Shown here: in pieces, positions 11,257-64,000 of the stretch
Numbering within the stretch: position 1 is the first letter of the stretch
How the letters are laid out: every line of letters starts with the position of its first letter
DNA from: Paramacrobiotus metropolitanus
Lineage: Eukaryota; Tardigrada; Eutardigrada; Parachela; Macrobiotidae
Direction of reading: 5' to 3'
NCBI RefSeq assembly: GCF_019649055.1
Contig: NW_026570257.1
Coordinates: 1,054,001-1,118,000, forward strand
DNA: 64,000 bases
Position numbers and translations under genes: made by a program
Notes under the pieces: generated by a model
What the model saw: the letters and a program-made list of their open reading frames with translations, nothing else
Databases searched by the model: none
Told to the model about the DNA's origin: nothing

Positions 11257-13018
11257 CCCGATTGGTGACTTTGCGTACACTATATGGTAGCCTTATCAAT
11301 GAGAATAAAGCACGGTGGAAAACGAAAAATGGTCTTGCAACCCAGCTCTTCCTTAGACGTGACTAGACTAATTGGATACTTGATTCAAGCAGCTCTAAAG
11401 AAGTTTATATATTATATGCTCGTTACTCCAGGCCGGAAGTGAGGTACGACCGTTAGAAAATGGTAATTGGAATTAGTAGCATTACACCCGCGCTTCAGCA
11501 GCGGCGGCCGCGTTTGTTTTTCCGTATCAATGTAATTATTTCGTTTGAAAAGGCGCAGTCGGATCTCCATTACCAGATTCACCGCACAGCATGAATCATT
11601 TCATTCATGAGAAAAGGCCTGCTGGCGCTTCTATTTCAGACCGTTTTCTCTTTTGATGGAAACACGGACGATTGCGTCACTTCCCCTAGGTCACTATAAA
11701 TAAGACCTACCGCAAAGCACTACACAATACAACGCACTGCAAAGTAGTATATTATACAGCTGGAACATTGGGCTTTTTATGCCTGAAAAGTAGAGCTGAC
11801 TTGTAACTAAAACCGCGGGATCCTCAAATGGCTGCTTTAATATCTACGTTAGCACTTATGACCGGACGCAGTGCTGGATTAAAAAAAAATAGATCCTTTC
11901 ATTCCGTAATGGCATTCTGCAACAATTCTTTAATTGGCAAGACATTCACAACAAAACACAGACACGGCAATACATACGGCTACCGTTTCCAGGATTTCAA
12001 GCAACAGATGAACTGATCCGGTGCGAATGATACAGGCCTCGTTCTGATCCTGCCGAAACTCTGAACGAACACTGTAGCGATCATACCACCAGTAGGAGAC
12101 TTAACTGCCTTCCATTCCTGTTTATTGGTTGCTGTGTTACTACATTTTACCTACCGCACCTCACGGTGAGAATCATCCTGCAATTAGTCTTGCTGTGGTT
12201 TGGTCAGAGTTTTGCTAATTATTTCGTACTGTCGTTATCCTGCTCCGCGCCTTCTGCATTGCTCGCCCACGTTTATGCCTTCTTTCTCATAGCCTGTTAT
12301 AGCCTTCTCATAGATCCTCATATGCTTTGCTTGCTGAATCTTGCTTTGCGTACTTGCTAATAAGCGTCTTGCCAGTGCCGTTGTGTTGCTTGACCGCAAT
12401 GGGATGATCGCGCAGCCCACTGCTGTCACATGTGTAAACTCACCACCGCCGACTGTGCACGTCTTTTTCACACTAACAACCGACAGATTGTGGTAAGGTT
12501 GATTAACCAACCCACTAGAACAACAGCCAAACCGGTAACGGTTATGGTTATGCATTAAAAAATTGTATCGTACACAGTATATCGTTAAATCTGCGCTCAA
12601 ATTTGGGTTTCAAAAATGCGTGATCGCACACCTGCTATTGCACTGTTTACATTAAGCCACTTCCCCAGGAATGATTTTCAGTTGAGGGCAGGTCGCCACA
12701 TTTCGAATGGCAATCTGCGTATAATTAGTTCTTCTATCATTCTGTATTTTGTCCAAAAAATGCGCGCAACCGACATATCTGTATATGTTATTTTTATTCG
12801 GCAATTTTTGTTAACGTTCAAATGTTACACCGACAACTGCCAATGAAAACAAAACTAAAAAGCCGCTCATAGGCTGCTAAGGTTCAGTTACTGAAATCGC
12901 AAAGTCTCTGAAGCAGTGTAACATAATACGGCAAAACCATGGAGCGATGTGCATTTAAATGCCTGTAATTATATAGCGTATTTTGTTTTCTGAGTAAAAG
13001 TAACAACAAACAAATCAA
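11257..13018. other. Intergenic region, no gene recognised
   Basis: Holds the putative promoter of GPCR copy 2 and the 3' flank of the dehydrogenase gene below. A TATAAAT at about 11695 precedes a short open frame with ATG at 11828, but nothing downstream supports a gene. Other open frames here lack family features. Confidence 0.45.
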
Positions 13019-21432: not shown

Positions 21433-21602
21433 TACTGCGTTCAAAGTTGCATGGCCATTTTAAATTTGGTTGGCAGACATGCTTCGTATATTATATTATA
21501 AAGATACAGTACTTTGCCTGAGCCGTGAGAAATAAGGCGAAGTAAAGTAAATGGCTTACAATCAGCTGCGGCGTGCACATATCTGTACAGAGTACAATCA
21601 TG

Positions 21603-44070: not shown

Positions 44071-45259
44071 TCACTCTGTGGTTGTCGTTGGACCACACTC
44101 GCTCTGGTCAACGTACTGGATTTTTAGCTGCAAAAACAGCCCCATAAACTCTTATTTATTTTATGCTTCAGTAACTACGAGTACTCGAGCTATGTTCATC
44201 GCGTTGCATATATATACGGACGATATGGCGCTGTGATTGGACTATGTATATGAAAATATAATAAATATTAAAATAATCGTTCTGACGTTAACTTACCCGA
44301 AACTGCGCTGTGGCATACAGCTCGTTATTTTGCTGACTATTCGTCAGCGTTAATGTGCACTGCAGCACGGTGTCCTGGGTGTAGATGACGGGTTCACAGC
44401 AACCGCATTCGGTGTGACCATAGAACAAATAGTAAGCCTGAGCATAAAAACACTTGTTATCTCCGCATTTCAGTGTGGACACAATTTTGGGCTCCGGATC
44501 GTTGTTGTAAATGCCGACATCCAGACTTTCATACCGTGTGCAAGCCTACAGAATATGTTTCTTTTTCGTCCATATTTAGTATTCACGTAATAATACAGAA
44601 TATGAAAAAATATATGTCAAGAACAAAATTCGATCATTGTACGTAACTTACACCAAATGTATAAAGCATGGCATTGGGATAGTCCTTAGTATTTTGCAGT
44701 TGGCATGTGGTGACGCACAGCTCTTCGGGCAGATTGACAATCACTGCCTTTCCGTATTCTGTAAAAACAGTTTTATTTGCGACGCATTGCAGATTAATAC
44801 TACTGCTAAGTGCTAACTAACTGCTCTTATAACATCGTTTACAAGTATATGATTAAAATAAACCTTCTTTTTGGCAGAAATGGCGCACCGTTACTGCGTT
44901 AACAATTATAAGCTTCTAGCAAAAGTCGCATATATCAGTAGAATTTGTGTACCGGCAGTTTTCGCCAAGAAATCAGCGCATTGTTCTGCCGAGCACGCAA
45001 AAGGCAAGGAAGGAAAATAGCAGGGATTATCGGAGCAGGTTGACGTCGAGGATACGGTTGCCTGCGCCGCCGGACACGGCGGTGGGCAGGTCGCACACGT
45101 AGGACAGGTCTTGGGAAGGGATTTTGTGCTGTTGCTGCTGTAGTAATTAGACAACGAGCGGCGCATGCCGGCACGCGGTGCTGCGCGATCCTCTTCCATG
45201 GAACCAGCGTCACATACCATGCTCAAACCGAAAAGGCCAAGCACTACCTGCGAAATCAT
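44071..45259 (-). CDS. Type A secreted Cys-rich protein, cluster gene 1
   Basis: Exons (minus): 45259-44953, 44758-44652, 44545-44297, 44127-44071, all in phase, 239 residues. ATG 45257-45259 opens a signal peptide (MISQVVLGLFGLSMVCDAG). Then come a basic linker (RRSL), the signature TCPTCATCPPPC, a CSDNPCYF...LPFACSAEQCADF segment, a GKAVIVNLPEELCVTTCQLQ segment, a long exon ending TVLQCTLTLT...ELYATAQFR, and an 18-residue last exon (LKIQYVDQSECG). About 19 cysteines imply a disulfide-bonded extracellular protein. It is nearest to cluster gene 3 (50772-51976). The family is unknown to me. An upstream ATG-less acceptor-like CAG at 45248 leaves open a separate 5' exon. Confidence 0.82.
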
Positions 45260-45334
45260 TTAATTAAGGGAATACTTTACCGGCGCAACCGTGGACCAAA
45301 AGGAAAAACTACAGATCGTGACAAGTACTGCGCG

Positions 45335-45341
45335 TTTTATA
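45335..45341 (-). promoter_or_regulatory. TATA box of cluster gene 1
   Basis: TATAAAA on the minus strand about 75 bp upstream of the ATG. It sits at the proximal end of a block (about 45338-45405) that resembles the upstream region of cluster gene 3 (50641-50708). Confidence 0.55.
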
Positions 45342-45831
45342 CTGTACCAGTATTATGCCATAAAAACGTCTGCTCTTCCATTGAATATTTCCTTCCATTC
45401 GTGAAGAATGTATAATTAAAATCTGGATGTACTCGAAATAAGACAAACCATTAGTTCCCGGTTACAACAATATTATCTAAAAATGGCCTTCTTACTGCAC
45501 GAGACAAAACACTGGATGGCTTGCGCTGAACATTCAAGATGCAGCTACCAAGGAGCTTAGATGACTCGGAAAAAAGGGCATCGCACCGGTGTCGAGTGTC
45601 GGCTAGGAATACAGTAAACAGACCTGACGAGCTAAATCGGGTCAATCAAAAACGTTTCGTTTTGCCTTACTGATAACATCTCACCGATAGCGTGTGGGAT
45701 ATATATTGATGAGGTACGTATGCCGTTTTGCGTTCGCTGCTCTACTCGTAATTTTATTATTGTTTAATTTTCTAACAATTGATGCTACGCTAACCGTGTC
45801 CCGCTCATGCAGGAGCGGTGTACGGTAGTAA

Positions 45832-46450
45832 GGCCCAGCGACTATTTTCACCGTATTTATGATCAGATGGTAAGGGTCAACCGGCAAAAGGGGTGCGTCA
45901 AGCTTAATAGCCGGCTGCTGAAAAATTGTTGTCAGCTAACAGGCCTTTCGGTCCTAGACCTGAATCTATGTGAGCAAGAGGTTCGATGTGGTACGATGTA
46001 CTTTTGTAGGAGGTAATTAACGCAGTCTTATCTATGTGCCAATGCGAGCAATCCGGAAACGGCTAAATTTTTACGGCGCAAAAAATAAAAAATGGTAGTG
46101 TAATCTGTAGAAGTGAGTTATCGTTACAAAATGCAGGGATCGGCAGGAAGTAATGCTAAATCCAGTGTGTGACATGCCGTAAAATGTCCATCGACGCTGT
46201 CCGTCGATGCAGGTGCATGGGCTTCATGCGTGACTGGCGCCGCACTCCACGACCTTTCCCGGTTAGTGTGAGTATCACCTTTCCCCGCGAACGCTTGAAA
46301 CTGCATTTTGCATTTAGACGAACGTCATCTGTGAATTATCTGTGCGGGGACAGTAGCACATCATGGAGCTGTACCGGCGTACTTTATTGTCATGCCGGGG
46401 AAACTTTCCTTTCCTGGACTGATACTACCAGTACTAACCACTTAATTACT
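45832..46450 (+). pseudogene. Decayed partial duplicate of the ABHD16-like gene
   Basis: Sequence near 45861 (GATCAGATGG, then GGTCAACCGGCAA) matches exon 3 of the gene at 40639-43510. 46060 matches its third intron (AATCCGGAAACGG). 46170-46440 matches exon 4 (AAAATGTCCA, CGACCTTT, CCGGCGTACTTTAT). Because intron sequence is included, it arose by DNA duplication, not retrocopying. Frames are broken and part of the intron is deleted; no product is expected. Confidence 0.8.
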
Positions 46451-47414
46451 TCAAGCATGAATTACGACTATAATATTATTTTGTATCTGACTGCAAACGT
46501 GAACTATTTCCTTAGCCCTTTTGTTTCCGTAATAGCTGCTCCCTTATCGACTTTTTGTTTATTTATATCCACCACCCTTTTAGCTCCTCGATTGCCAGTA
46601 CTCCTAAGTCCCTAACGACTGCTGAATACTCTGCTTAGATACGAGTACATAACAATTTAAATTAAATTATTCTAAATCTATTCAGTAAAATCGGATAGTC
46701 TTGCACTTTCATGTACTCTGCAGTCACTTGGTCTGTTTTTATTTGTCGATGGAATGTTCTTCACTTTTAACACCATGCCCTTTCGCAAAGTCAAAAGGTA
46801 CAATTCGTGCCGGCTACTCTGCATAATTTCATACGTTTACTTGGATTTTGTTAAGAAAATTTTTACCCAGTCGGCCAGTTCATGTAACAGAAATGCAAAA
46901 CACTTATATTCGAACAATGCAGATATTGGGCAAAGGTCGTCCTTACGCATTGCCGTTGCTCCTTAGTATCTTTGTATGGATACGCTACCGGCATCCGGTA
47001 GCGCGCTGTTTCAGAAACTGGCTACACTTGCCAATAAAATTACTCATGCTAAACATTCAAATACGCGCATCTATTTTCCAGTTGAAAAAAAATGACCATT
47101 GCGTATTTGTCTACGGTAACATCGGACGAGCGATCTGCAGAGCTATTAGAACGTTTTGAATGGGCTTACCACCGTCTAGATCCACGGAGAAGGAAAAACA
47201 TTTTGTTTCGTATTACCGCCCATTGTTTCGTTCTGATTGCACACACTGCAGATCGATCATTGCGACTCGTGGTACCCCGCATTAGAATTAATAATGCGCG
47301 TTTTGAGTCGTTTAACTTTGGCAACCCAACGTCAACGTAACACATTAATTAAGCAGAAATACTGAGCATCCGGTTTTCCCAGGTTATATTGGAACTTATT
47401 ATATAATATATCCC
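46451..47414. other. Intergenic region
   Basis: Upstream of cluster gene 2. Several overlapping open frames of 60-100 codons near 46750-47340 show no recognisable features. A TATA-like TTATTATATAATATA lies at about 47397-47411, just before the candidate start of gene 2. Confidence 0.45.
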
Positions 47415-49314
47415 ATGTTTGGCAGTTATGGACAGCTTTTGCAAGTGCGCCACAATCTTAAATGTAAAGGCATTACGATACTTATATAGTTAAAAAGTTT
47501 TATATATGTTAAGATGACCATTTGCTATCCTTCGTCTTGTAGCTAGGGTTATGGATCTTAGGTGCGTATTTCGTACCACACAGTGAAGGACTTTCACCAT
47601 CTCGATATCGACGGCAATCTGGTCCTTACTATGCTGCTTTATACCAACCACGATCACCGGCTTACAGTGGTACGTATTCAAGCATCCACACAAATATCTA
47701 TACAAAGTTTGTAAGATGTCATAATAATTTAATTGATCAATCTTCTTTTCAGGGTCATCGTATCAAAACCGTGTAAACTACAAAGTCCGCACCAGTGGCA
47801 CGTACAATCAAAACACCGACAACTATCCGGACACTTCCGGTTATTACGATTCCGGACGAGTAAACGTTGAATATGACAATGCGCCTAACGACTACCGGAA
47901 CACCGGCAGCTCTCCACAGCGAACAAGGAACACGACATTCAACCTGGGCGATTATTTCCCGTATACCCGAAGAAATTTCACCAACAGCGGAAATTATAAC
48001 CAGCGGCTGACATATGGCAGCAACACATACGGCCAGAGTTATTCTCGCAGCAGCAGTAATTATTCGCCATCGAATTACGCACAGAGTGGAAGCAAGGATA
48101 AATACCGCAACGTAAAATATACCCGCAACGACTACAGTTTTCGTTTATCGGATGATTATGGCAGCCGCAATTACGGCTACACCGACTACACCAATACCAC
48201 CTGTCCGAAGTGTCCGGATTGCCCGCCATCGTGTAATGCCAGCGTTATACCGCCACCGACGAATTCGACTATTCAGGATTTTCAACAGTTGCCGGATCTG
48301 TGTGATCCCACTCTGATCAACGAATGCACAACACCGTCGCTACCCTTTCGATGCACTACGGAGCAGTGTATAGCAACAGGTAGTGCAGACATACGGGCAC
48401 TATTTTATTCATTATTGTTTGATATTCAAATCTTTTGTATACACAAATATTCAAATATACAATATACCGTACACATATTTATATATATACAGATATACAT
48501 GTATACGTAATATTCAAATACTTTGAATATGCAACTATTATTTGAATATGCAACTATTTAAATTACATATATACAAATGTATATAATATACAAATATTTC
48601 GTAATGTACAAATATTGTGCGATACTCTTCGTAATATCTGTCCGTATTTTATCAACGTTTGCGGCTTTTTAAAGTGCTTTGATTTTTAGGAGAAGCCGGT
48701 CTCGGTGTACAGATCTTTGCGCCTGGTGAAGTGTCCGTTTCACAATGTATATTTCGAAAATACGTCGGAGCTGTATTGTATTCTTACAACGTAAGACTTA
48801 GTAATTACAGTCCTACTGGATACAGACGCTAAAATCAGTAGCTGTAAAACGCACAACTATGACGAGGGAAAACTGCCACTATAACACAAATTCATTTTTA
48901 GGTGTGTCAGGTTGGTAGCGAGACACAAGTGGATTTGACGCCCGACTACGTTCAGAACATTGACTGCTCGGAGACAGCTGATCCGGAGTGTCTATGGGCC
49001 GCTGCTGGATCGATTACCGTTCGGGATCCACTCCTCTGCAGTAATCTGTGGTCCGTCTCAGAGCCAGTGGTACTCTACTGCATTTTGTACCTGTGGAATC
49101 ATGACAATGGACAGACGAATGTGCTGGCCACGGCAAATATCAATGTAAGAATTCATGGGTTCGACCGTTCGATCATCATGATGATCTAATACACCGGGCT
49201 TATGGGATGGAGTTCCTCTAATGTTAATTATTTTGCATATCCTCCATATTAGCTGTTATTGTATATAATTTTTATATTTTACAGATAACAGTCAATCCTG
49301 ACTGCCGTTGTTAA
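47415..49314 (+). CDS. Type B secreted Cys-rich protein with Tyr/Asn/Ser-rich region, cluster gene 2
   Basis: Exons: 47415-47444 (candidate, MFGSYGQLLQ), 47543-47669, 47753-48379, 48690-48790, 48902-49144, 49285-49314, all in phase, about 385 residues. Exons 1-2 form a signal peptide (LGLWILGAYF). Exon 3 is a low-complexity stretch rich in Tyr, Asn, Ser, Thr and Arg, followed by TCPKCPDCPPSC, LPDLCDPTLINEC and LPFRCTTEQC. The next exon has VQIFAPGEVSVSQCIFRK. The fifth holds ten-odd residues around VRDPLLCSNLWSVSEPV. The last encodes only ITVNPDCRC plus stop. The intron phases parallel the type A genes. Probably an extracellular, partly disordered, disulfide-linked protein; its function is unknown. 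Exon 1 is the least certain. Confidence 0.8.
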
Positions 49315-50640
49315 GTGGGATGAAGCGCTACTTAGCAATTTTGTTTCCCCGGATGTTCCTAGTTCCTACAGCTAATTTCCTATGGGCGAAAATTACTGTC
49401 CTTATTATAATGTTTTCTGATAGAACAGGAACTCTGTTATTTATACAGTATTATTTATATCTCACAATTTAAAATTAATGTTACTTGTCATTATTTATAA
49501 TTATTCAAAATAGGAGATCTATGTAAGTAGTACTTCATGTCGTTCCGACTTGTTCGTAAAAGATACAAAATGGACAAATTGCTTCTGTAAAATGTTTATT
49601 AAACATAAGCAAAAAATAAGTCAGTCGTCAATTTCGCGTTGCGCTGCACCTGGTACAACCACTAGTTATCGTACGTTCATGAATTTGTTACATATGTATG
49701 CACTAGCTAATAATAGTAATATTTTATGATGTGCGAGAACTGTGGAATTGATAATACTTTTGTATTCAATCGTGTGTTTTATTTGGCATCGCAATCACCA
49801 CCAGCATCGAAAGATCATGACTAAGAAATCCGTAGACTCAGCCGACATTATTAATGCAGAGTTTGATAATTACGAGTAGTTGGAAGATAACCTTTTCCAG
49901 CTTTGCATGTGTTCATATATATTTCTTTATTATACTTAAATAATAGAGAATCAAACGTTTTTAAGGTTACCATAAATTTAACGCACAGTATAACACTATC
50001 AGCAAACTTCTACTACGTCGACACATATTAGCTTGTGGAAACAGTGAACGAAAGCAAGCCGCAACACCAAGCGGTCAGGTTTTTCGGTTACGAGAATCCA
50101 GCAAAACTGCCAATTCAGTAAGGGAACGTTGGTAACCTTGCAATAGAATTGTCGCATTATAATGGTGGAAATTCAGGTACATTTTGCGGTGTGTTTCTTC
50201 TGCTTACACCATGCAATGTCCTCAGCACTCCCTGCATAAGGCTAACAAGAGCTAACGTAGCAATAAAAGAATTGGTCGGAAGAAAAAAACAAAGGGCAGC
50301 GAACGCCGAACGGATACGCACCTTACCCGTATTCCACTTGGTCGCGCTAGCTGCATGTCATCTGTGAAGGAAACACGATTTTTTTATTTGACTCGCTCCC
50401 GCTCGCAAAGTCTGTTCGATCGGTATCCTTGAAAATTCGAAAATAACCATGTGTCGCATGGTCGTCAGTCGATACCCTTCAGAATTTATTACTTATACAA
50501 TCCCATTCATCTTGAGTAAACCATCCAGTTTGATTTTTACCTTAAGATAAGATGCCGGTTCTTGCATATTACTGAATCCAGAAAACCATTTGTTTCTATG
50601 ATAATTTAAAAATTTCGCGGTTTTAAAACTGTTTTAAACT
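49315..50640. other. Intergenic region
   Basis: AT-rich, between cluster genes 2 and 3. No gene recognised. Confidence 0.5.
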
Positions 50641-50708
50641 TTTCGCGAATGGAAGGGAATTTCCGTAGGATTAACTGCCTTTCTTATGGCCGGATGCCGG
50701 TACAGTAC
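50641..50708 (+). promoter_or_regulatory. Upstream block shared with cluster gene 1
   Basis: The block from TTCGCGAATGGAAGGGAA to CCGGTACAGTA resembles the reverse strand at about 45338-45405 upstream of gene 1. The TATA of gene 1 is not conserved here. Probably a common ancestral promoter of the two closest type A paralogues. Confidence 0.45.
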
Positions 50709-50771
50709 AGTCGTTGTCAGTCATAGTATTTTCTGCAGTTATTGTAGTAGACATTGCATAGTGTGCCCTGT

Positions 50772-51976
50772 ATGTGCACAGTTGCTGTTTTACCTCCCAC
50801 AACTACTCACATAAATCGTAATTTGCAGGTAATAATCCTTTGCCTTTTCTCAATCAGTACGGTATGTGGCGCTGGCTCGATGGAAGAGGACCGCGCAGCA
50901 CTGCGTGCCCGCATGCGCCGCTCGTTGTCTACTTACTACAGTAGCAACAACACCAAATCCCTTCCCAAGACCTGTCCTACATGTGCGACCTGCCCACCGC
51001 CGTGTCCAGCGACGCCGGCGACCGTACCTTCGACGTCGTCCTGCTCCGATAATCCCTGCTATTTTTCCTCCTTACCATACGCTTGCTCGGCTGAACAGTG
51101 CGCTGATTTCATGGCGAAAACTGGCGGTAAATATACTCTCAGGATAATGATGATATCATACGAATTTGGAGAGAAGCTTGTAAATAATGTTTACACAATA
51201 ACATCGCGCCACGTACGGCACAAAGCAAGGTATACAGAGGCATACTTATCCGTAAACGATCTTATAATTAGTTACGCGTACAAAAGCAGTTTCCACTGGT
51301 GCTGTTCTGCAGTGCATCGCAAAGTAAAATTTTCTTTGTCAATGTAGAGTATGGAAAGGCAGTGATCGTCAATCTTCCGGAAGAGCTGTGCGTCACCACG
51401 TGTCAACTGCAAGATCTGTCGGGGACAGAACCCGTTGCCGGCCTGTATGCATTTGGTGTAAGGGGCAACTCCTAAGGTTCTCTATATTATTCTTTTATGG
51501 AATCAGAATATTAACAAGAGAGGAACCTGTTTTAAGGCGTGTACACGGTACGAACGTTTGGACATCACGGTCAACGGTCAGGAGCCCAACGTGGTGTCCG
51601 TGCTGAAATGCGGCGCTGATCAATGCTTTCAAGCTAGTGGTTACGGACTGTTTTACTCCACCGACAACTGCAATCCCGTCATGTACAGCCAAGATACCGT
51701 GCTGCAGTGCACTTTATCGCTGATTAATGCACAAACCATGAATGGTGAATTATATGCCACAGCGCAATTTCGGGTAAAGTTTTACTGCGATCGTGTTTAG
51801 AATCATTATGTTACTACATTATTCGTCATTATTTGCAACGCCATCGACATACAATAACTGTGAGAGTTTGACTGATATTAAATTGGTTCTCTTTGCAGTT
51901 AAAAATCCAGTACGTTGACCAGAGGGACTGTGGACCAGTAATAATGGATCTAGTACACCGGAATAATTATGTATAA
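50772..51976 (+). CDS. Type A secreted Cys-rich protein, cluster gene 3
   Basis: Exons: 50772-51126, 51348-51457, 51537-51773, 51899-51976, all in phase, 259 residues. It shows VIILCLFSISTVCGAGS (signal peptide core), RRSLSTYY, TCPTCATCPPPC, CSDNPCYF, YACSAEQCADF, then GKAVIVNLPEELCVTTCQLQ, VSVLKCGADQC, SQDTVLQCTLSL and a last exon LKIQYVDQRDCG with a longer tail than its relatives. It is nearly parallel to cluster gene 1 in every exon. The chosen ATG 50772 gives a long N-region before the hydrophobic core. A separate first exon spliced at the CAG ending at 50828 is an alternative. Presumably secreted; function unknown. Confidence 0.8.
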
Positions 51977-53001
51977 CACGTATTGCACAATACCTTCGCC
52001 TGTGTAACATACTGTACATGGATTTATTACATAATTATGCAATCAGACTAGTCAGAGTGAATATTATCCTCAATCACCTGCCAGCTCGCATTCCGTGTGT
52101 ATCTGTACTCGATATGCGGATTATTGACTTACCATTAATTTTTGATAGTTGTGAATTTGTGAATGTTCTGCTAACATTTTAAATATAGTATCTAGTCGTT
52201 CGATTTGTGAAATCGCAGTACTCTGTGTGCACAGGAACGATGTCTTGCCGGCGGTACCGTCCGGAGTTTATTCACGGAAGTTTGGTCTGTACTTTTGCTG
52301 TACATTGAATTATTGTGATGGATGCGACAGCCGGAAATGTACGGGTTTTTCTTTTATAATTATCACAATGTTTTTATACGTGAAACCGTGGCATAGCCGG
52401 TACCAACTCACACAGGTACACTGTGACTAAACATGTCTATACACATTGTCGGCATGCTGACTGTAATTAGTAACCACCATTATCAGTTACGAACTTACGA
52501 AACACCTGCACCGCCCTCGTTAAAATAAACAAAATTCTGTTATACAATCGCTATACTGTTTTTGCACGTTGCGCACCACTTTCTATGTTCTTGTACAACT
52601 TTTTTAACTCATTTTTGCCTTCAATACATAAATTAGCTAAATGGCAATGCTGTTGTTTCGTGTATCTTATGACGATATGAATATATGAAAGGTTGCAATC
52701 AACATAAAGGTCTCTAATCCATGAAAGCGTCGAAAACGCCCGCGGAATTGTTTTCTGTCAGAAATCAGCGACTGCCATTCAGTTTATTGCATTTGAGCTA
52801 GTTTGCCATTTAGTTTACCGTTAGACCAGTTAATTTTGCAACCTGGAAAAATAATCGATTTCACATACTACTTAAAAACTCGTTATTTGTACAAAAATAA
52901 AAAATAAAAGTAACATAAGGCATGCAGAAATGAGGGAGATTTTGTTGGAAAACGACTGGACTGATTACTTTTGGTGGACTTAGTTGGCTGGTTAACAGCA
53001 T
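51977..53001. other. Convergent intergenic region
   Basis: Between cluster genes 3 (plus) and 4 (minus). No gene or clear repeat recognised. Confidence 0.5.
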
Positions 53002-54331
53002 TTACGCCGTGGGTATTCCGCAGTCAGCGGGGTTAACATATTGGACTTTCACCTATAAAGCAAATCCCACAACTATGTACAGCTGTATCATGACTGGACA
53101 TTTAACAAACATCCGATTCCGTGCCGAAACTCACCGTAAGATCTGACGTGGCTAGTAAATCGGTGCCCTTTTTAAGCTGCAGTGTGCACTGGAGCGTGGT
53201 ATCGGCTGTATATGTTTGTGTCGCACAGTTAGATTTAACATAGATAGTATCGACATAGGCGGCCAAACACGTTTCAGTCCCGCAGTTCAACGATGACACC
53301 ACGTTATCCGAAGGGGCTGTGCCGGTATTGAGGTTATCTCTAACCACAGGAGAAAGGTCACCGGTTTTGGTACATGCCTATCAGATTAATTTTTAACTGT
53401 TTAATTATTTATATCCGGATTAATCATGCAGTAATAGACAGCTAACTGCTTATACACATGATTCCGGGATTTAAGCGCAGTGAGTAATGTCATATAAAAT
53501 TGATAGTAAATTCAAACCGCACATGTCGAAGCAGAGCGTACCCCGTAACGGTAAAGCAGGAACGCGCTGTCCGTAGTCGCGGTGCCGTATTGTTGCAGCT
53601 GGCACGTCGTAATACAGACCTCTTCGGGAAGGTTTACAATAACAGCTCTGCCAAGGTCAGCCTTGTCTACAACGGCCAATTTTTTATAGGAACATATACA
53701 GTATAACACGGTGCATACACAAAGTGTGTACACGATTAAACTAACTTTGCCGGAAATTTTGCAGTCTACTATAACGTACCGCCCGCGCTTTTGATGAAGT
53801 CGGCGCACTGCTCTGCCGAACAAGCATAGGGCAATGAATTGAAATAGCAGGGATTATCCGTGCACGTTGAGGGAGGGGGCGCCGGAGTGGAGGCCGGACA
53901 GGGCGGAGCACAGGCGGCGCATGTCGGGCAGGTCTTGGAGCTGGTTTTTGTGTAGTTTTTGTAGTTGTAGTTATTGTAATACGATCGACGGACGCGGGCT
54001 ACTGGCTCGTCTGCGGCAGCGAAGGAGGCCAAGGCAATCACTAGGCAAAATATCTGCAAATATTTTGCTTAATTCCACAATTTAAAAAAAAAACTTTGTG
54101 TTAGATTGCCAGTTTTTGTAATTTAACGAAACAATGCCAATTAGAAAATGCAATATATTTAAAGTTACACTACGCAGCACACACACAGTTAAAATGCGCA
54201 GTGTATCGTTTTAGTTTAGAAAAACTAGTAAGCCATAACCTTTTTCTGCTTTAAACAAATTCTGCATCCGTTGTTACACTAGTACTTACCGGTTGCACAG
54301 AGAGCACTTTCATCCACAAATTTTTCTCCAT
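53002..54331 (-). CDS. Type A secreted Cys-rich protein, cluster gene 4
   Basis: Exons (minus): 54331-54290, 54053-53780, 53666-53542, 53377-53135, 53052-53002, all in phase, 244 residues. The first exon (42 nt, donor CCG|GTAAGT) splits the signal peptide, which continues as IFCLVIALASFAAA. Then come RRSYYNNYNYKNY, TCPTCAACAPPC, CTDNPCYF, YACSAEQCADF, GRAVIVNLPEEVCITTCQLQ, ACTKTGDLSP, VSSLNCGTETC, TADTTLQCTLQL and the last exon VKVQYVNPADCG. A run of Tyr/Asn before the signature hints at a miniature of the type B low-complexity region. Secreted and disulfide-rich; function unknown. Confidence 0.85.
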
Positions 54332-55481
54332 GGTGGGCAACTGATGGAATCGTATCACTGAGATCGTTTGCTTATTCGTAACAGGGAAATGCCGTATAAA
54401 CTAAAATACTATTGCTGTGATTCTGCACAAAATTCAATTAATAAGTCCAATCGAAACATGCAGGTACTTCTTGCACCGCTTAATACATTCGCACCCGCCG
54501 AAAGGATAGTTAAAGTTGACCTAAAAATTGTGTCGTGAATTGTGCAACAAAAGTCTACAAAAAATTTAAAAAAAGTATATTTTTGTTACGTCTTGGATTA
54601 TCAAGATGAAGACCATATGTGCGTAAGACGTAACGCTTGTGCAGGAAGTTAACGCATATATGCAAAAGTAAAAAAATGAGCAAAGGTCAATCTCATAAGT
54701 TTGATTCTCATTACCACGCTATCTTTGTATCTATACTCTTAGTGCTCTGTAATTTTACTCGACATATTTTGTAGGTGGCTTCGTCGTATCGTTTTGATCG
54801 TACATGCAACGTCCAGTTAATTTGTTTTCATATTGATATTGTTTGATTAATGCGTCTATTATTATAATATACCCTTTATTATACAAGGATCGCATTTCAG
54901 TAATACTCACTCTTTAAAATAATTTTGTCGCCTCTTTATCTGTTAAAGAACAGCTGAGTAATACTTTCTATCAGAGACTATCGCGGAATAGGCCTTGGAT
55001 AAATTTTGTCTTATATACGAAGTACTCTGTATTTGTTTACAATATTGTGCTTTTATGAAGAAATAAGGCAGTTAATCGTGTGTTTATATTAGTTTTTTGA
55101 TTTTTCGTAACCGTAACCAGGGAATAAAGAAAATTACATTAGGTGCAATTTTATCGTACATGTTGTGCTGTAACTAAACCGTCGTTTTCCACGTGATTTC
55201 TTGATACGTAGTACTGCGTTTTGCTGCTCTGATTTTGTGATCCACAGTATAAGTGTACCACCGCAAACGCTGCATGTACGGCATTATCTTTATTTCGATA
55301 AATGCAGATAAGATCAACCAGCGCATTGTACAAAATTACGGGCAAAGCAGACAATTATTGCTATGGTACATAGTAAACAGAAAAACTTTTGTGCAGCAAA
55401 ATCTACATCGTGTACACATAACCGGCGCAACCGGTACGCTAATTTCCGGGGTTCTGGTTTATGGTGACTCCTCGTAGTGTA
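54332..55481. other. Intergenic region
   Basis: AT-rich, holding the promoter of cluster gene 4 and the 3' flank of gene 5. No gene recognised. Confidence 0.5.
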
Positions 55482-57322
55482 TCAGCACCGGCAATCGGGA
55501 AAGACATTGATCTGCAAATTATTTTGATTAATTCCGGATTCGGATACACAGATATCTGAATGAATTTTTTCAACGACAGTAATTAAGGGTGCTTCATGCT
55601 TAATGGAAAGCCATCATTATTTTCAGTAGCTTACTTCGACATCTTCCGAGGCCTGAACTTGTCCCGAATCGTTCCAAATGTACAAAGAGCAGTGCAGTGT
55701 GACGGGTTGCGTCAGCGACCAGAGATTGAAACACAGCTGCGGATCGCGGACATAGACGGATCCTTTCTGGGCCCATAAACACTCCACCTGGGTTGTTTCG
55801 ACGCAGTCGATATTCTGCCGGTTGTCCGGTGTCAAGTTTAGAACGTTAGCGCTGGAACCAGTCTGCTGGCACACCTGCATCATTCAAAGAAAAGATATGA
55901 AACTAACTTATTATCGGCTAGAAGCTTTCCGCATGTTTATTACTTATGTCATAACTAAATAGCGGCTAAACGTTCATACACTTTTTGTTGCTTACATCAT
56001 AAATAAAAAGTGGCTAAAATTTTATAGACTTTATTGCTAGTTGCTTACGTCATAGGTAAAAAGCTCGGTCTGAAATTTCCGGAATACGCACTGGGAGACA
56101 TTGACCTGTCCCGGGGAGAAGATTTTTATGGGTAACCCTTCCGATGCTGCAAAAGCACCAGTGACCAATCAGACAAAATTGAGACGTACGTCTATTTAGT
56201 ATTGCGTGCGTACCGGCCTGTTCGCACTCGGCAGCTGTGCAGCGAAACGGAGCCGACGGTATGGCACACTGGTTGATGTAAGTCTCATCACAGAGATCCG
56301 ATAGCTGCGTAAAATCCTGGATTGTGGAATTCACCGGGGTGGTCGTAGTTACGTTGGTTGCGTTACAGGCCGGCGGACAATCCGGGCACTTGGGACAGGT
56401 GTTGTCGTACTTATAGTTGTACTTGTTATCATAACTCCGGTTGCGATAATTGGATGTATACTGGTTGTAGTCGTTACGGCCATATGAAGATCTTCCTGAT
56501 GTGTACGCTGTCGATCCCTGCCGTCCGTAATCCGAGCGAGAATAATCCTTCGAATTATAGTTATTATACGCATCGTTGTACCCGTACGTGTTATTGGAAT
56601 AGGACAGGCGTTGACCGTAGTTGCGGTTGTCGTTATAGGAGTAATCATTTCGGTTTCCGTAGCCATTATACGAATTGTCATTCCGGTCGTAGTTCAATGT
56701 CCGGTTTCCGCGTGGATAACTGATGCTGCCGGTATTGTCGTAACGCGATGAACTGCTGTAGTCGGCGTTACTGCGATCGTAAGAACCGTCGTAAGAACTG
56801 TATGCGCCGGACGCCGGTGATTCATAGTAGTTGACCTTTGAGCTGTACCGTCCGGTGTCGTAGTTGTCACGATCGGAATTATAATCGGGGTCAGGACCGT
56901 AGTCGTTACTGGTGCGGACTTTGTAGTTCATACGGCTACGGTACTCTGACCCTGAAATTTTATTTGATATGGTGGTATTCAAGGCTAAAGAATTCATAAG
57001 TAACTATAGATGCCTCACCGGCATACGGTGCCCGTGGTGGTTGGTAGGATCCCGGATAATTGTAGGCTCCGGCTTGCCGCCGATAACGGCTCGATAGGGA
57101 ATCACTCTGGTCATTCTCCGCCAAATATCCACTGAATATAGTTAGTAAAATCTATAAAAAATTAAACAGATTGTGTTTGAAAAATGTCGCCTTTTAAGTC
57201 CATTGTTTCATATTCTATAAGGCAAATCCAGTAGCTGCTAAACAATTTTAGGTTGACATTAACCCGTTATTGCATTTTACCTGTATCCTAAGGAGAGTAG
57301 AGTAGCATATGCCGTTATGCAT
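55482..57322 (-). CDS. Type B secreted Cys-rich protein with Tyr/Asn/Ser-rich region, cluster gene 5
   Basis: Exons (minus): 57322-57281, 57151-57019, 56951-56214, 56146-56049, 55874-55635, 55511-55482, all in phase, 426 residues. The 42-nt first exon (MHNGICYSTLLRIQ) plus ILLTIFSGYLA forms the signal peptide. A processing-like SRYRRQ follows. Then comes a 180-residue low-complexity region dominated by Tyr, Asn, Ser, Asp, Arg and Gly, then TCPKCPDCPPAC, SDLCDETYINQC, FRCTAAEC, VNVSQCVFRKF, NIDCVETTQVECLW and VRDPQLCFNLWSLTQPV. The last exon encodes only INVFPDCRC plus stop. Composition suggests an adhesive, gel-forming or cuticular extracellular protein that could be tyrosine cross-linked; that is inference. 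Confidence 0.87.
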
Positions 57323-59621
57323 TTTCCACGCAAATAATTAGATAACAATTCCCGATGCTGAAGTCTTGCTCCAAAATATACAGACTTCAATTCAACTCAG
57401 TTCTCATTTAAAATGCACAATAAATTAGCGCCCAGTTTCTCAAGGCGTTCATAAAGTTTGTTAGTACTTCAGAATAGTAGTTTGAATTTCTAACTACTAA
57501 ATCTTGCGCAACCGGAAGCAGTTAATGTTTCGCACATACATAACACCGTCTTTTTGCAAAAAAAGCGCCTCGTGATGTTTTTCTTGATAACATCGTGATA
57601 TATTTTATGGTGTTGCGTGAAGGATAAAAAGTTAATATGATCAACCCAAAAAATAGCTGCCGCTATAACATCAGTCTATATCCTTACACTTTCATCATGA
57701 CCTTGGCATTACGAAAGTTTGGATTAATTGGCTGTAGTAGTTGGATCGTTACTGCATGTTACTGCACGTCACAAATGCGTGTACGTAGGCTATACCAGCT
57801 ATACTATCCAGCAAATTTGCTGCGAAATAGCTGTATTCGCACATACTCGTATGTAAGAAAATCGGATTCCGGCAACAAAGTGCACCGAGATGCGCAAAAT
57901 TTGCAGATTTATTATAGAATTCTGCATTCAACATGCAATTGATTTCGGAAACATACTGTACATAGGTTCGCTTAGTTTGTGATTTCTACATATTTATTAA
58001 GCGTTACCAAAATTCTACATGTAGGGCAGGAGTGCAGGACTGTATTTGCTGGTATTCTACAGTATATTATCCTGTAGAATATCGATAGCGAAAAGGCAAC
58101 GGATTCAACGATAGTACGAGTACTCGTATTTGAACAAAATGTTTGCTCATTCTTAGTTTTAACTTGTAGTCGTGCTTGACAGAGTACATTCATCGTGCTC
58201 TACTCTAGAATTGTGTGATTAGTATATTTTGCATTTGTTAACGGCCTGCTTGTTGTCTCCGCATATTGTAGGTATCGTTTTTAAAAGCTGCATCATCGCA
58301 AAGTGTGCATGGAAAGGAAAACACATCGCAATCCAAGACCTAGTTAAAGCGGAAAATAAAGTCGGTAACACTTAATAATACCAGTATTAACGGCGCTGCT
58401 GGTTGCGAAGTTGTTCGTCGATGTTCCTCACAAGAGCTGCTGATTTTCAGTTTGTTCCTTACAATTTGTAACTACTCTGTATATAGTTGTAAATGTAATT
58501 AGACCTTCCAACGCATAATTTTGACCAATTAATTAGAGGGTAGCACGGGTGTCTATAATTAAGGATTTGAGGAATACTGCCAGTGTCGTGACAACCACCA
58601 AAACTTTCGCTTTCACGCACTCCCAAACATTTCATAGCGTCCATTTTACATCGCCATATTTCGGCAACCGCATAAAAGGGAATCGATCCGGTGTATTATA
58701 CAGATACAGAACACAGTACGAAATCCTTGCAATCAGTGATTTTTTGAGCGAATTCATTAGATAAGCTCAACGGAAGCTTAAAACCGCACTGCCATCATGA
58801 CATCCGAGCAATTTTTGTATGGTGACTAATAGTGTGGTGACTTTTCAGATTTACCAGAAACTGGTCATGCATTTTCGAAGTGTATAACATAATTATGTCT
58901 GTATTGTTTCGATCATTTGATCATTGTAACCATAAAACGCCAACTAAAGTGCTGCTTCTTAAATATCTCTTTAATGTAAATTCAGCTAAAACAAAGGCTA
59001 GATTGCAATATGGAGATACTTGTACGTGTTTTTTATAGTTCGTACATTGACGAACCTTTTAAGGCATTTATTAGTATATTTCTAATTAATGTCAGTCAGG
59101 TTCCTTATTGTGCCTTGCTGCTTGAAAATACCCTGTATTTGCGTAGCACGAACAAACTTTATACGACAGAGCTGTATGTGCTGATGCTATAATTGATATT
59201 TACACGGTAAGATATCGATGGCAAAATGGCGATTCAGCGATAGTTACAATAAGCTGATTGTTTGCTCGTTATTAGTGTGGGTACTGTATTTTTGACATCG
59301 AACAAAGCGGTTCCTGTTTTAGCGGTGCAGTTTCACTTAACAGAAATCTCCTGCTTCAAAATGAAATAAAGACTGACTGAATAATAACACAATAAGGACT
59401 AAATTAAGACACCTTCCAGCAAATAGTTATATTTAAATTAAATTAACCATAAGTTACATCAAGAATTATGATTGGCCCATCAGATCTTTTCGTCCATTAC
59501 TGGAATTACATAAATCCTATAATAGGCCTCACCGGCAGGCGGCATGCCAATCGCACCAAATGTTAACAATGGCAATTTAAAAGGAGGCAAAAACATTTAG
59601 GCTGGTCGATGGCTGATAATT
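57323..59621. other. Intergenic region
   Basis: 2.3 kb between the promoter of cluster gene 5 and the last exon of gene 6. AT-rich; short open frames only; nothing recognised. Confidence 0.5.
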
Positions 59622-62141
59622 CTACCATCTGGAGACTTTTCCACACTGGTCTTCGGGTACGTATTTGATGATCATCTGGAAAGAAACCAACCCGGCAAAA
59701 TTGTTCATGTCAGATACTGGAAATTTAGGTATTACAAAACGTGAAAGGGATAATATCCGGCACGGATGCCAAAAAGTAAATATGAAGTCCTCGATGCCGC
59801 AGCTCTTAATTATAAGTAAAGGTCAACTTATATATGTTTATTGTTTGGTGTTCTGCAGGTCATTTGCCAATAGATTATTACGTTCAAACATACTTTCTGA
59901 AAGGTTCAGAGTTTATCCTATAGTACTTATTTTATACTGCTTAAAGATCAGGGTTTATCCTTGGCGTGCACGAACCTTGAAATCTGCCGTGGCGAGCAAT
60001 TCATTATTCAGCTGATTATTATGCAGTTCAAGCGTGCACTGAAGAACGGTGTCCTCGTAATAATGCAGGCTGCCCATACTGATACGCGAGTAGAGGATCT
60101 GATCTATGAATGCACCAAAACTGATGTCCGATCCGCACCGAATAAGAGAGTTAATCACTGGTTGGGGAGTGGCAGACGTTCCCTGCGCCACTACCGCCGT
60201 CAGATCTTCGTAGCGTGTACAAGCCTACACAACAAACGCTTTTTTCTACTCTGGAATTGGAAAGCAAAAATATTTAAGTATTCATGCATGATAAAGACAA
60301 ACTTGAAAAAATATGCATTATGACTTTTGTGGACATAAAATAACTCAACTCTAGAAAAGAATGGTAACCTATCGTTTGATGTCATGCACGGGAGGGCGGC
60401 TGCCATGGTGACAGATGCGCGTTTTTGTCTGTTAACTCTGTTTTCTCAGCATCTCTTCTATTTCTAGCCCCACAAATACGAATGTCTATATTCAGTATGA
60501 TCTCTTGGAATATCACAAATCTTATGATGAGAAAAACTTGATAATATCTCATAAAAAGGACAACAAAATCTGTGGAACTATGATAAGCTTAAATCAACAA
60601 AAGGACGCTGGGCGACACAGGAAATGAACAGCATCGCTAAAAGTTGTTGCGAAAGCAGGTTTTCCAAAATAGTTGAACCTGTGGGCTTATCAAACGACGG
60701 GACAAGACCTGATGGTATGACGCTGATTCCTGTCCAGCAAGGAATGCCAATAGTGGGAGACGGTGCACTTTATCGACTTATCCAAGGAGCCTGAAAAGCT
60801 GGCAGGTGGCCCACCTAGCAGAAAGCGCGAAGCGATACGGGTAAGTTTAGAAACCGATACCCTTCTATCCTTTAGTGGTTGAAACGTTTATGCGTTTTCG
60901 GTCCAGCTTAAGCGAATTGTTGCACTTTATGGGCCGGAAAATTCTGTGACCTGACTGGAGAAGCGCACCTACTGCTTTTCTTAAACAACGTTTCAGTTTG
61001 GCTGTTATTAAGGAAACGCTACGGCTGCATGTTAAGTACGCTACCATTTAACCCACGGGTGGATAGAGATTTTGGTTGTTTTTTCAATGTTTGAAATTTT
61101 AACAGTAACGTAGTGTGCCTGCGCTTGCACTTCTTGTTACATTCTTAATAGCTATAACGGTGATAAGCTTAATAGTGCACAATGCACAGCAGTGCTTGCT
61201 GTATGCGAGCGTGATGACGTTGTGTTTTTCCAGTTCTTACAGCTATAGTAAGACTGTTTATTCTAGTATTGTACATACTGCATATATTTTTGTGAAATTA
61301 CGTAAAATAGTCGTAAGTACGGAGCTATAGTACATTTGTAATTAGGTAGGTAATAACCGTCTAAGTAATGATATTTGGAAGCGCGGGCAGACTATGGGAG
61401 AGTGTAAACTGAATGTTTATCTGTTACGTGAGGAGCTACGGAAAATCGCTACCCCAAATCGATGGATCACGAAGCCATAGTTGGTGTACGACTGCATTTG
61501 GCACGTTGTTATGCACAGTTCATCAGGAAGGTCGATGATAATTGCTTTGCCAATTCCTGTAGTACAAGTACACATGTACGTTATTAACTTCGTATATATA
61601 GCTAGCATGCAAAATTTAGCAGCGATAAGCATCCAGGATTTTTGCTGTTGTTTGTTGATTATTTAGATAAACAGCTTAGACCATATAGTAAAAAAAACAG
61701 CGGTACCTGGGAAATATAGATAATTCACAACATGATAATTAAAATTGTATCAAGTATAGCGACTGTACTGACTGACCGTTTGTACTGTTGACAAACTCTT
61801 GGCACTGCTGGGCTGAGCAGGCAAACGGCAGCGAACGGAAGTAGCATGGATTATCTTGACAGGTATTCGGTGGCGGTGTTGATGGTGCTGTGACAGAGCA
61901 CGGTGGTGGACAGACTGCGCACGTATGACAGGTCTTTTTGGATGAGGAAGAGTACGGATGAGATCCCGTCTGGATGACGATCATGAGCAGAAAGACCGCT
62001 ATCTAACGTACAACGACGTAGCCTTACAGAATGAATTGTGTATCCATTGATGAACATGAATACACAATTCATTTTGTACCAAGGGTGAGCCTTAAACGTT
62101 TGTATGACACGGATAACTTTTAGCTAGCTGCATCTTACCAT
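59622..62141 (-). CDS. Type A secreted Cys-rich protein, cluster gene 6
   Basis: Exons (minus): 62141-62139 (the ATG alone, donor ATG|GTAAGA), 62002-61777, 61556-61453, 60224-59976, 59675-59622, all in phase, 211 residues. The signal peptide would read MIAVFLLMIVIQTGS. Then TCHTCAVCPPPC, CQDNPCYF, FACSAQQCQEF, GKAIIIDLPDELCITTCQMQ, ACTRYEDLTAV, EDTVLQCTLEL and a last exon IKYVPEDQCG. It is the shortest and most divergent type A member, with only a short Ser-rich linker before the signature. Intron 3 (1.2 kb) holds a retrotransposon fragment. Secreted; function unknown. Confidence 0.82.
60601..60850 (+). mobile_element. Fragment of an R2-type retrotransposon endonuclease
   Basis: A broken plus-strand frame in intron 3 of cluster gene 6 contains TRPDGMTLIP followed by a Gly-Asp where the family has Trp-Asp. 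This corresponds to the KRPDGVTITP...WDVTC restriction-like endonuclease core at about 23570-23640. Stops follow. It derives from a related but distinct element. Confidence 0.65.
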
Positions 62142-63161
62142 GGTGGCAAGTGACCGGAAATGCCGCATACAGTTGTGTTCACAATCAGCCATAATGTAGC
62201 CAGTCTAGCATATACAGTGTTAACAACAAAAGTATAAACATGAAGCTATGATTGAAAAGAGTACGTGCAGTCGGCATTTGGAGATTAACAGTTGGAAACT
62301 ACACAACTCATCGATGGGCGATATTGTGCTTGTGTTTGCATATTGAGTATCGCAGCCCTTTGCATAACGTCTTTTGTGGTTAACTAGTTGTGTCGATGGG
62401 CAGCAATGATCGCTCGTTGATTTGAAAAAATTCCCGGTACTGTACTTCCGCGATGCAGCCGTTTGTGCGATACAGTTATAAGCGACTAAAGGTCACTATA
62501 AAAGCCGACAATTTACTGGACAAAAAATAGATGCGCTGTTTTGTGAGAATGCCGTTTGTGCGTTCACCTCAGCCAGCGAGGCAAGACCAACGAGTTTCAG
62601 GTTTTCAGTCCCAGAACCAGCGGTACTAATCTATTTAATAACGCCGATATGATGTCGATTCCACGTTTTATTTATAATGTTTTATTTGTTTTGTTTATAT
62701 TTTTTTTCACCAGTCAGACTATCAGTATCAAAACAGAAAGCATCTTAACTAACAATTTTAAGGTACTGCAGCGAGAGATCAATGAATTCCCTACCTGAAA
62801 TATTTTTAGAATGCTACAGCTGAATACTAAGTAGTGCGAGAAGTGAACAAAATGCATACGATAAGCATTGTGAGCCATCCTGTTTTTTATAGCGATATTT
62901 CAGTACAAAAGTACTCGCTACGAGTAATTACTGAATTACTCGTACTATCAAACAAAATAACATGTTGCATTAAACATGCGTAACTTTGCTGTGCAAGAAT
63001 GATTGCCGAAGCCAGACGTCATAATTACCAGGTACAAGTACACGTGTACAACAATCAAAATAATTATGTGTATGCACCTAAAAATTAGAGGAGCAGACAT
63101 ATCCAAATTAAGAAATCTCCACGTTTGCAGAAGATGAATTTGAATTTTCTAATCCGTATGG
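62142..63161. other. Intergenic region
   Basis: Between the promoter of cluster gene 6 and the last exon of gene 7. Nothing recognised. Confidence 0.5.
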
Positions 63162-64000
63162 TCAGCAGCGACAATCGGGATTGACGGTAATCTACAATAA
63201 AACAGATTTTCATCACGGTCCCACGTCATGCTAATTGGGACAAATTTTTCATTGGAGTGTTTTTATTGAGCGAAGCTCGCCTATGACTGCACGAAAACTG
63301 CTTTACATTGTCTGAATTGGCGTTATAATACACTGCAATGCATATAGTGCAACTGCACAACAGTTAAACATGGAAAAGAATATTTTTTCTAAAAATTCAA
63401 CTAGCAACATTTAGTTCTGCATTAATAGCATGGGACCGAAACCGCCCAGTACGTAATATTATGCAAATAGTATTATTTTACTATTTACCTGAATTCCGGT
63501 CGAAGCGAGCAGATTCCCGTTGGAGTCCGCAAGGGACAAACTACAGTGCAGTACTGTCGGCTGGCTAACAGACCACAGATTGGTGCAGGAACGGGGATCC
63601 CGGACAAAGACCGTAGTGCCCATTACAGAAAGGCACTGAGAATCGGCCATCTCCGGGCAGTCGATACTCCCGCGAGTGCTGAGGTCGTTTAACTGCCATT
63701 TTGACGCTGGACGCTGACAAGCCTACGAAAACAATTGCAAGTAACACTACGGGTAGCCATACATTTGCACTCCCATGCAACAGACCATGAACAAAACCTT
63801 ATATATTTTAATTTTGGTATTTATTATGACACAATGTCATCAGGTGCAGGGCTTACGTCAAATGCAATAAGATCACCGAAGAATTTGCGAAAGACACACT
63901 GGGAGACGTTGAGATTCTGGGGTGCAAAAATCTGCACTTTAACACCGGTGTCGGCTAACAAGCAATTATTCGGAGTTATTGACCGTGTGCGTATCGCATA
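63162..64000 (-). CDS. Type B secreted Cys-rich protein, cluster gene 7 (5' part outside the window)
   Basis: Three 3' exons (minus): 63954-63857, 63722-63489, 63191-63162, in phase. They encode VQIFAPQNLNVSQCVFRKFF, then ACQRP...SIDCPEMADSQC...VRDPRSCTNLWSVSQPT and LHCSLSL, and a terminal exon ITVNPDCRC plus stop identical in peptide to that of gene 2. By comparison with genes 2 and 5, the signal peptide, the low-complexity region and the CPxC signature should lie beyond 64000. Function unknown. Confidence 0.82.

Follow-up and report, generated by a model that had tools for sequence, protein, structure and literature searches.

The question raised by this locus of the tardigrade Paramacrobiotus metropolitanus is what is encoded by two types of cysteine-rich (Cys-rich) genes, A and B, and whether their products work together. 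The genes lie side by side in a stretch of 64,000 nucleotides (contig NW_026570257.1, positions 1,054,001 to 1,118,000 of the forward strand; hereafter the window). A previous sequence-only reading described a cluster of seven such genes in mixed orientation, and raised the possibility that A and B products assemble outside the cell. Here, we found that the array is larger, with 11 genes over ~37 kb (positions 44071-80668 when the window numbering is continued past its end), and that every one of the five B genes has an A gene as the nearest family member downstream on its own strand. This B-then-A order is newly recognised here, and it lends indirect support to an A-B partnership, which appears plausible. 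The reading to which we lean, with a probability of roughly 0.45, is that A and B are two secreted subunits that would be made and assembled together into a matrix, such as eggshell or cuticle, cross-linked by disulfides and perhaps through tyrosine.

Gene order and duplication of the array

Seven of the 11 genes are located wholly or partly within the window, in the order A1 (minus strand), B2 (plus), A3 (plus), A4 (minus), B5 (minus), A6 (minus) and B7 (minus, spanning the window end). The other four, A8, B9, A10 and B11, follow past the window end, all on the minus strand. Gene models were spliced from conserved exons, splice sites and frames. For the seven window genes this yielded open reading frames (ORFs), so that each gene of the earlier cluster exists, and the last exon of the first one ends exactly at 44071:

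44071..45398, minus strand: gene A1; exon 0 45348-45398, exon 1 44953-45247, exon 2 44652-44758, exon 3 44297-44545, exon 4 44071-44127; spliced GT-AG model with open frame
47092..49314, plus strand: gene B2; exon 0 47092-47115 (tentative), 47543-47669, 47753-48379 (long, tyrosine-rich and Cys-cluster exon), 48690-48790, 48902-49144, 49285-49314; spliced model with RYRRQ and a PDCRC end
50649..51976, plus strand: gene A3; exon 0 50649-50699, 50829-51126, 51348-51457, 51537-51773, 51899-51976; spliced model
53002..54331, minus strand: gene A4; exon 0 54290-54331, 53780-54053, 53542-53666, 53135-53377, 53002-53052; spliced model
55482..57322, minus strand: gene B5; exon 0 57281-57322 (tentative), 57019-57151, 56214-56951, 56049-56146, 55635-55874, 55482-55511; spliced model
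59622..62192, minus strand: gene A6; exon 0 62139-62192 (like that of A8), 61777-62002, 61453-61556, 59976-60224, 59622-59675; spliced model
63162..64000, minus strand: gene B7, part in the window; exons 63857-63954, 63489-63722, 63162-63191; spliced model over window and flank (locus L001)
Past the window end, minus strand: remainder of gene B7; 64034-64462, 64793-64943, exon 0 65106-65141; spliced model

As listed, the Cys-cluster exon that had been ascribed to the seventh gene (64034-64462) is past the window end and could not have been seen within the window. Intron phases are 0/1/0/0 in A and 0/1/1/0/0 in B; the shared phases 1, 0, 0 recorded earlier thus hold for introns 1/2, 2/3 and 3/4 of both types, and the extra B intron sits between the exon with the convertase site and the tyrosine-rich exon. 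Since exon boundaries were chosen at GT-AG sites near conserved frame ends, the GT-AG ends of all 41 introns between modelled exons in 13 genes (37/37, and 4/4 for B7) represent in-frame sites at equal places and are no independent test. On the basis of position, donor and, A4 excepted, likeness between close copies, exon 0, which carries the start codon, was located in A1, A3, A4, A6, A8, B7 and B9; in B2 and B5 its placement is tentative. For A1 it was placed by likeness to A3 and the common donor GTACAG, which is weaker evidence, and for A4 an exon with a GTAAGT donor supplies a hydrophobic leader. Wherever exon 0 was resolved, the phase-0 intron falls inside the hydrophobic N-terminal segment. 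No start exon was found for A10, B11 or two A genes on another contig (A12 and A13, see below), and no exon 4 for A10. Intron 2 of A6 (60225-61452) is 1228 bp long; in seven other A genes it measures 70-317 bp. A weak tblastn match links the A6 intron to a retroelement ORF at 23233-23814 (24% identity, E 0.003) and suggests an inserted fragment.

Read along the minus strand, the order is B11 A10 B9 A8 B7 A6 B5 A4, and along the plus strand B2 A3. Both strands are used, as had been noted, but what looked like a mixture of orientations comes down to five B-then-A pairs, each on one strand, and the lone A1, an inverted relative of A3 (73% identity, synonymous divergence (dS) 0.56). When type and strand were shuffled, five B-then-A successions out of five were reached in 0.12% of cases, and when type alone was shuffled, in 0.22% (200,000 shuffles each), although these fractions are not strict probabilities because duplicated copies are not independent. 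The distance from the B stop to A exon 0 is ~1.3 kb for B2-A3, 1.2 kb for B5-A4, 1.0 kb for B7-A6 and 1.3 kb for B9-A8, and that from B11 to A10 exon 1 is ~2.3 kb.

Members of two neighbouring pairs have diverged equally: dS is 0.61 and nonsynonymous divergence (dN) 0.17 for A6/A8, and 0.60 and 0.16 for B7/B9. DNA likeness between the B7-A6 and B9-A8 units is mostly confined to exons. A broken B-A copy was also found on contig C42 (C42:33466-35056, or L008 3466-5056); it comprises four blocks with 80-98% identity to stretches of B11 and A10. Their order and strand are unchanged, and the copy contains internal deletions and frame breaks. The matching dS values, together with the recurrence of the B-then-A order in this copy, point to duplication of a B-A unit as the origin of at least the younger copies. 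Because the A and B trees disagree, we claim unit duplication solely for B7-A6/B9-A8 and the C42 copy. In general, the local duplication and divergence suggested earlier are supported.

One family and its relatives

The sequence-only reading regarded A and B as two related, apparently secreted Cys-rich families. In profile-profile comparison (hhalign), A and B matched with a probability of 99.0 (E 6.9e-18). The A-only profile scored 23.6-39.6 bits on the five B cores, against at most 13.4 bits in the 995-1000 scored shuffles per core. It exceeded every shuffle for all five, and the B profile did so for six of seven A cores, the exception being A6 (10.4 bits versus 13.1 for the best shuffle). 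Eleven invariant Cys are common to A and B in an alignment of 12 sequences, and one branch separates the two types in a joint tree (100/100). These profile matches and the shared exon phases indicate a common ancestral set of exons for A and B.

To collect further members, we searched the entire genome (169.8 Mb) with A3, B2, B11, A10 and two genes of a third subtype, C. Contig C7 was found to hold A12 and A13, and contig C39 the two C genes, which brings the family to 15 genes plus the C42 fragment; this is a lower bound, as the search scores only the best candidates. Additional weak matches were observed on C8 (E 0.57), C83 (E 0.02) and C255 (E 0.23). The frame of A12 changes inside its Cys-cluster exon 1 (C7, L003 2254-2404) and its later exons look intact, so that it is either a young pseudogene or an assembly error; only exons 2-4 of A12 were used. 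The C genes (L005 2737-3605 and L006 2194-3111) have reduced Cys clusters; their exon phases are unchanged, and the Cys pattern is largely retained. The first Cys signature is present in the L006 gene and only partial in the L005 gene. An RYKRQ motif occurs upstream in the L006 gene. Profile-profile probabilities were 97.7 for A-C and 98.0 for B-C, and both C genes scored above their shuffles with the A and the B profile (4/4). Judged from these comparisons, A, B and C are homologous.

Twelve genes (A1, A3, A4, A6, A8, A10, A13, B2, B5, B7, B9 and B11) carry an exon with C-x2-C-x2-C-x3-C and PFxCxxxxC followed by two LxC-core exons in phases 1, 0, 0; A10 is counted without a located exon 4, and A12 is represented by exons 2-4. 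The signature shared by both types, as previously proposed, is valid in this relaxed form, whereas its strict C-P-P-x-C part fails in A4, A10, A13 and B11.

No well-characterised domain family had been recognised in these proteins before, and none was convincingly matched in the libraries searched here. Pfam returned no family for A3 and B2 at E values up to 10 and, for 12 members, only two unrelated weak matches in one member each, ATP-gua_PtransN (E 0.1) and ZNF512_C2HC (E 1.5). The prokaryotic NCBIfam library gave three isolated weak matches, and a PDB profile search five (E 0.85-8.5), namely four ferredoxins aligned on the Cys motif and BtpiA. As a control, Pfam recovered clear families for four of six other window ORFs (RVT_1, 7tm_1, ENTH and Amidohydro_2), one weak LRR_8 match for the fifth and nothing for the sixth. 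Thus, A and B matched no known family in Pfam, NCBIfam or PDB; counterparts could well exist among the hypothetical proteins of other tardigrades.

Several candidate identities were rejected on this basis. A ferredoxin-like CxxCxxC module or a zinc finger is represented by nothing more than the isolated weak matches in the three libraries. Pfam holds a chorion entry, and no chorion profile matched in the scan of A3 and B2 (E up to 10) or in that of 12 members. A ZP domain was matched neither under these Pfam settings nor in the PDB profile search, and Pfam showed neither the chitin-binding consensus of Rebers-Riddiford cuticle proteins nor a lipocalin in A or B. A genome search with Lipocalin_7, aimed at secretory abundant heat soluble (SAHS) proteins as a tardigrade marker, found one gene, by eye an ordinary FABP-like ORF. 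No description of the family was found in the portions of the open-licence literature covered by a non-exhaustive survey, and the array genes are not mentioned in the available portions of PMC11191345.

Protein anatomy, constraint and the putative matrix

The products of these genes are probably secreted: N-termini were strongly hydrophobic in all eight models with a joined N-terminus, one of which relies on a tentative exon 0 (KD(11) maxima 1.97-3.49; hydropathy alone, no control). Behind the leader, a convertase-type R-x-R/Q-R motif is found in all five B proteins, as R-Y-R-R-Q in B2, B5, B9 and B11 (in B11 from its ORF) and R-F-Q-R-Q in B7. Among the A proteins, R-x-R-R is present in A3 and A4, A1 has merely GMRRS, and the motif was not seen in A6, A8, A10 or A13. 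An arm rich in tyrosine (Tyr), Asn, Ser and Arg, with 16-20% Tyr, extends over 103-203 residues in the five B proteins (112 in the incomplete B11 model), and some A proteins have a short Tyr-rich stretch. Hydrophobic leaders, furin-like sites and a small tandem family would also fit soluble or mucus-like Cys-rich secretions of gland or gut, used in feeding, the buccal apparatus or adhesion, and Tyr-rich arms suit adhesives too. We regard such secretions, in place of an A-B matrix, as unlikely, as the joint duplication of two different subunits would be unnecessary for independent secretions.

A and B share a Cys cluster (C-x2-C-x2-C-x3-C ... PFxCxxxxC) and a domain of ~120 residues that is divided among three exons. 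All five B cores contain 16 Cys, and A cores contain 18 (A1), 16 (A3 and A4), 14 (A6 and A8), 15 (A13) or, without the last exon, 16 (A10). Of the 11 genes whose core is complete, 10 have an even count. Fifteen positions are common to both types, and an extra Cys, located in exon 2 in A and in the C-terminal PDCRC in B, makes each type even, which suggests that one disulfide has been reshuffled between them. Two exon 3 Cys are absent from both A6 and A8, as expected if they pair with each other; A12 and A13 lack only one of the two, which counts against a simple pairing rule. The five B proteins all end in I-T/N-V-x-P-D-C-R-C.

Counting estimates of dN/dS for the core were 0.22 (B7/B9), 0.26 (A6/A8) and 0.32 (A1/A3). 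Ahead of the Cys cluster they were 0.54, 0.94 and 0.50; the last two values come from just 23 and 46 codons, leader included. A role in defence or recognition, with binding to microbes or gametes and diversification by tandem duplication, would be in agreement with the array, the Cys-rich secreted domains and the strong divergence of A genes (33-53% protein identity outside three close pairs). On the other hand, whole-gene dN/dS was 0.27-0.35 in four close pairs, including A12/A13 (0.27), and revealed no positive selection at this coarse level, and Pfam gave no lectin, defensin or immunoglobulin match. Hence, we consider this role improbable.

With respect to the B arm, Tyr columns were kept in 19 of 20 cases in the ungapped B7/B9 alignment, compared with 59 of 83 other columns (Fisher p 0.038). 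Between distant B genes, an apparent conservation of Tyr positions (26/27 in B2/B5) proved to be an alignment artefact: when the alignment was blinded to Tyr, Y/Y columns were about twice the chance number in four of six pairs (for example, 10 versus 4.9 in B2/B5). Thus, Tyr content is kept and Tyr positions are kept only in part.

In the matrix reading, the core would be a disulfide-locked, beta-rich extracellular domain, A and B would be produced together from adjacent genes, and convertase cleavage might free the Tyr-rich arm of B. The two proteins could then co-assemble via their homologous cores, and oxidative cross-linking of the Tyr-rich arms would generate a resistant matrix, for example an eggshell or cuticle layer. 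We propose that the need for both subunits keeps the B-A pair together.

Comparable arrangements have been described, in the portions of PMC13409908 available, for insect chorions. Most silkmoth chorion genes form A-B pairs (A/B, HcA/HcB), the chorion of the moth Hyalophora is hardened by disulfides, and Tyr-rich secreted eggshell proteins are hardened by dityrosine in Aedes, Drosophila and Rhodnius (PMC13409908). Like the silkmoth system, the array combines two related, apparently secreted families in repeated gene pairs. Silkmoth pairs are divergently transcribed from a shared promoter; here, B and A are arranged head-to-tail on one strand, ~1-2.3 kb apart, there is no divergent pair with a shared promoter, and the proteins are unrelated in sequence; A1 and B2 do face apart, yet B2 has A3 downstream on its own strand. 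The B proteins are Tyr-rich and apparently secreted, similar to the Aedes, Drosophila and Rhodnius proteins, but their arm is fused to a domain of 14-18 Cys that matches no searched library, and its cross-linking is putative. ZP egg-coat and cuticlin proteins resemble the putative A-B matrix proteins in having disulfide-rich extracellular modules that polymerise, with a size and Cys pattern different from those of A and B. SAHS proteins are, as A and B appear to be, a secreted, lineage-expanded tardigrade family, but they are lipocalin/FABP-like and lack a Cys cluster. In the portions of PMC3459984 available, the Milnesium proteome is reported to include proteins similar to insect chorion peroxidase, and vitelline membrane proteins are mentioned; suitable cross-linking chemistry may therefore exist in tardigrades.

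A number of observations weigh against the matrix reading. With 15 Cys, the A13 core is at odds with a monomer in which every Cys is paired. In B7/B9, the Tyr arm (dN/dS 0.54) is under weaker constraint than the core (0.22), and Y/Y columns were at the chance level in the other two of the six distant B pairs (B5/B9 4 versus 4.1; B9/B11 4 versus 3.8). No B gene was detected beside the two A genes on C7 or the two C genes on C39, and A1 has no B of its own. The array mostly alternates on one strand, hence there are also three A-then-B neighbours. Moreover, the separate A and B trees do not match in their deeper branching. B2 and B5 group together (89/88) and their partners A3 and A4 do not, with A4 outside a group of A1, A3, A6, A8 and A13 (91/91). 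Support for A6/A8 is 100/99 and that for B7/B9 just 44/11 despite 73% identity, which we attribute to the long, ill-placed B11 row that wanders in the tree. The disagreement, which has moderate support, reflects either reshuffling or conversion among the oldest pairs or a distortion of the trees by the long A10 and B11 rows. Some pairs may thus have formed later than the genes they contain.

Much of this evidence would also fit the view that A and B are independently useful paralogues and that the B-A order is a trace of array growth, without any partnership. Alternating arrays arise from tandem duplication alone, lone A genes and A-like C genes exist on C7 and C39, and the depth of the two trees disagrees. 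Against it stands the observation that all five B genes retain a downstream A although dS is saturated in most pairs, which is suggestive only. We think that an absence of partnership is possible, if somewhat doubtful; it overlaps the other readings, and the odds given here are not exclusive of each other.

Little was found on the protein composition of tardigrade egg envelopes or cuticle in a non-exhaustive survey of the open-licence literature. A two-subunit family with precise gene models would provide direct candidates for such proteins. If A and B are indeed partners, the array would be an independent parallel to silkmoth chorion, with paired structural genes that spread jointly and encode unrelated proteins.

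Upstream stretch and minor observations

Three A genes share a non-coding upstream stretch. The A8 copy lies ~311-781 bases before A8 exon 1 (L001), and the two window copies are as follows:

45433..45898, minus strand: non-coding stretch upstream of A1; 63% identical to the A8 upstream stretch over 519 columns
50283..50453, plus strand: shorter copy upstream of A3; 68% identical to the A8 copy over 187 columns

This likeness of 63-68% persists although synonymous sites are saturated or nearly so in A1/A8 and A3/A8, and a shared enhancer or gene conversion is a possible explanation. A common transposon is disfavoured, as a genome search with the stretch matched just two places, A8 itself and A1; this search missed the A3 copy and hence has limited sensitivity. 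A bolder version of the matrix reading would hold that A and B are obligate partners co-polymerising via a new disulfide domain, with the Tyr arm of B as the cross-linking strand, in a hitherto unknown two-component tardigrade egg or cuticle material, encoded by genes that spread by duplication of the B-A pair and are partly driven by the shared upstream element. At present, we would not expect this full version to hold, and put it forward as an outside possibility.

Other features were noted in the window and the genome. Catalase_C, which we take to be the extra C-terminal domain of certain catalases, occurs at three places (C5:2963142-2963597, C23:572732-573121 and C154:178230-178574), and among 14 control genomes in two, both of bacteria. 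Portions of PMC6652013 describe parachelan eutardigrade catalases as resembling bacterial clade II and having an extra C-terminal domain. In the window, a GC-rich retroelement, by eye similar to those without long terminal repeats, is present at 21529-24002 and contains a reverse transcriptase ORF (Pfam RVT_1, E 5.5e-13). Two adjoining, similar receptor genes (7491-8477 and 10303-11292) are probably a tandem pair of rhodopsin-family G protein-coupled receptors, with 7tm_1 matched in the first, the one that was scanned.

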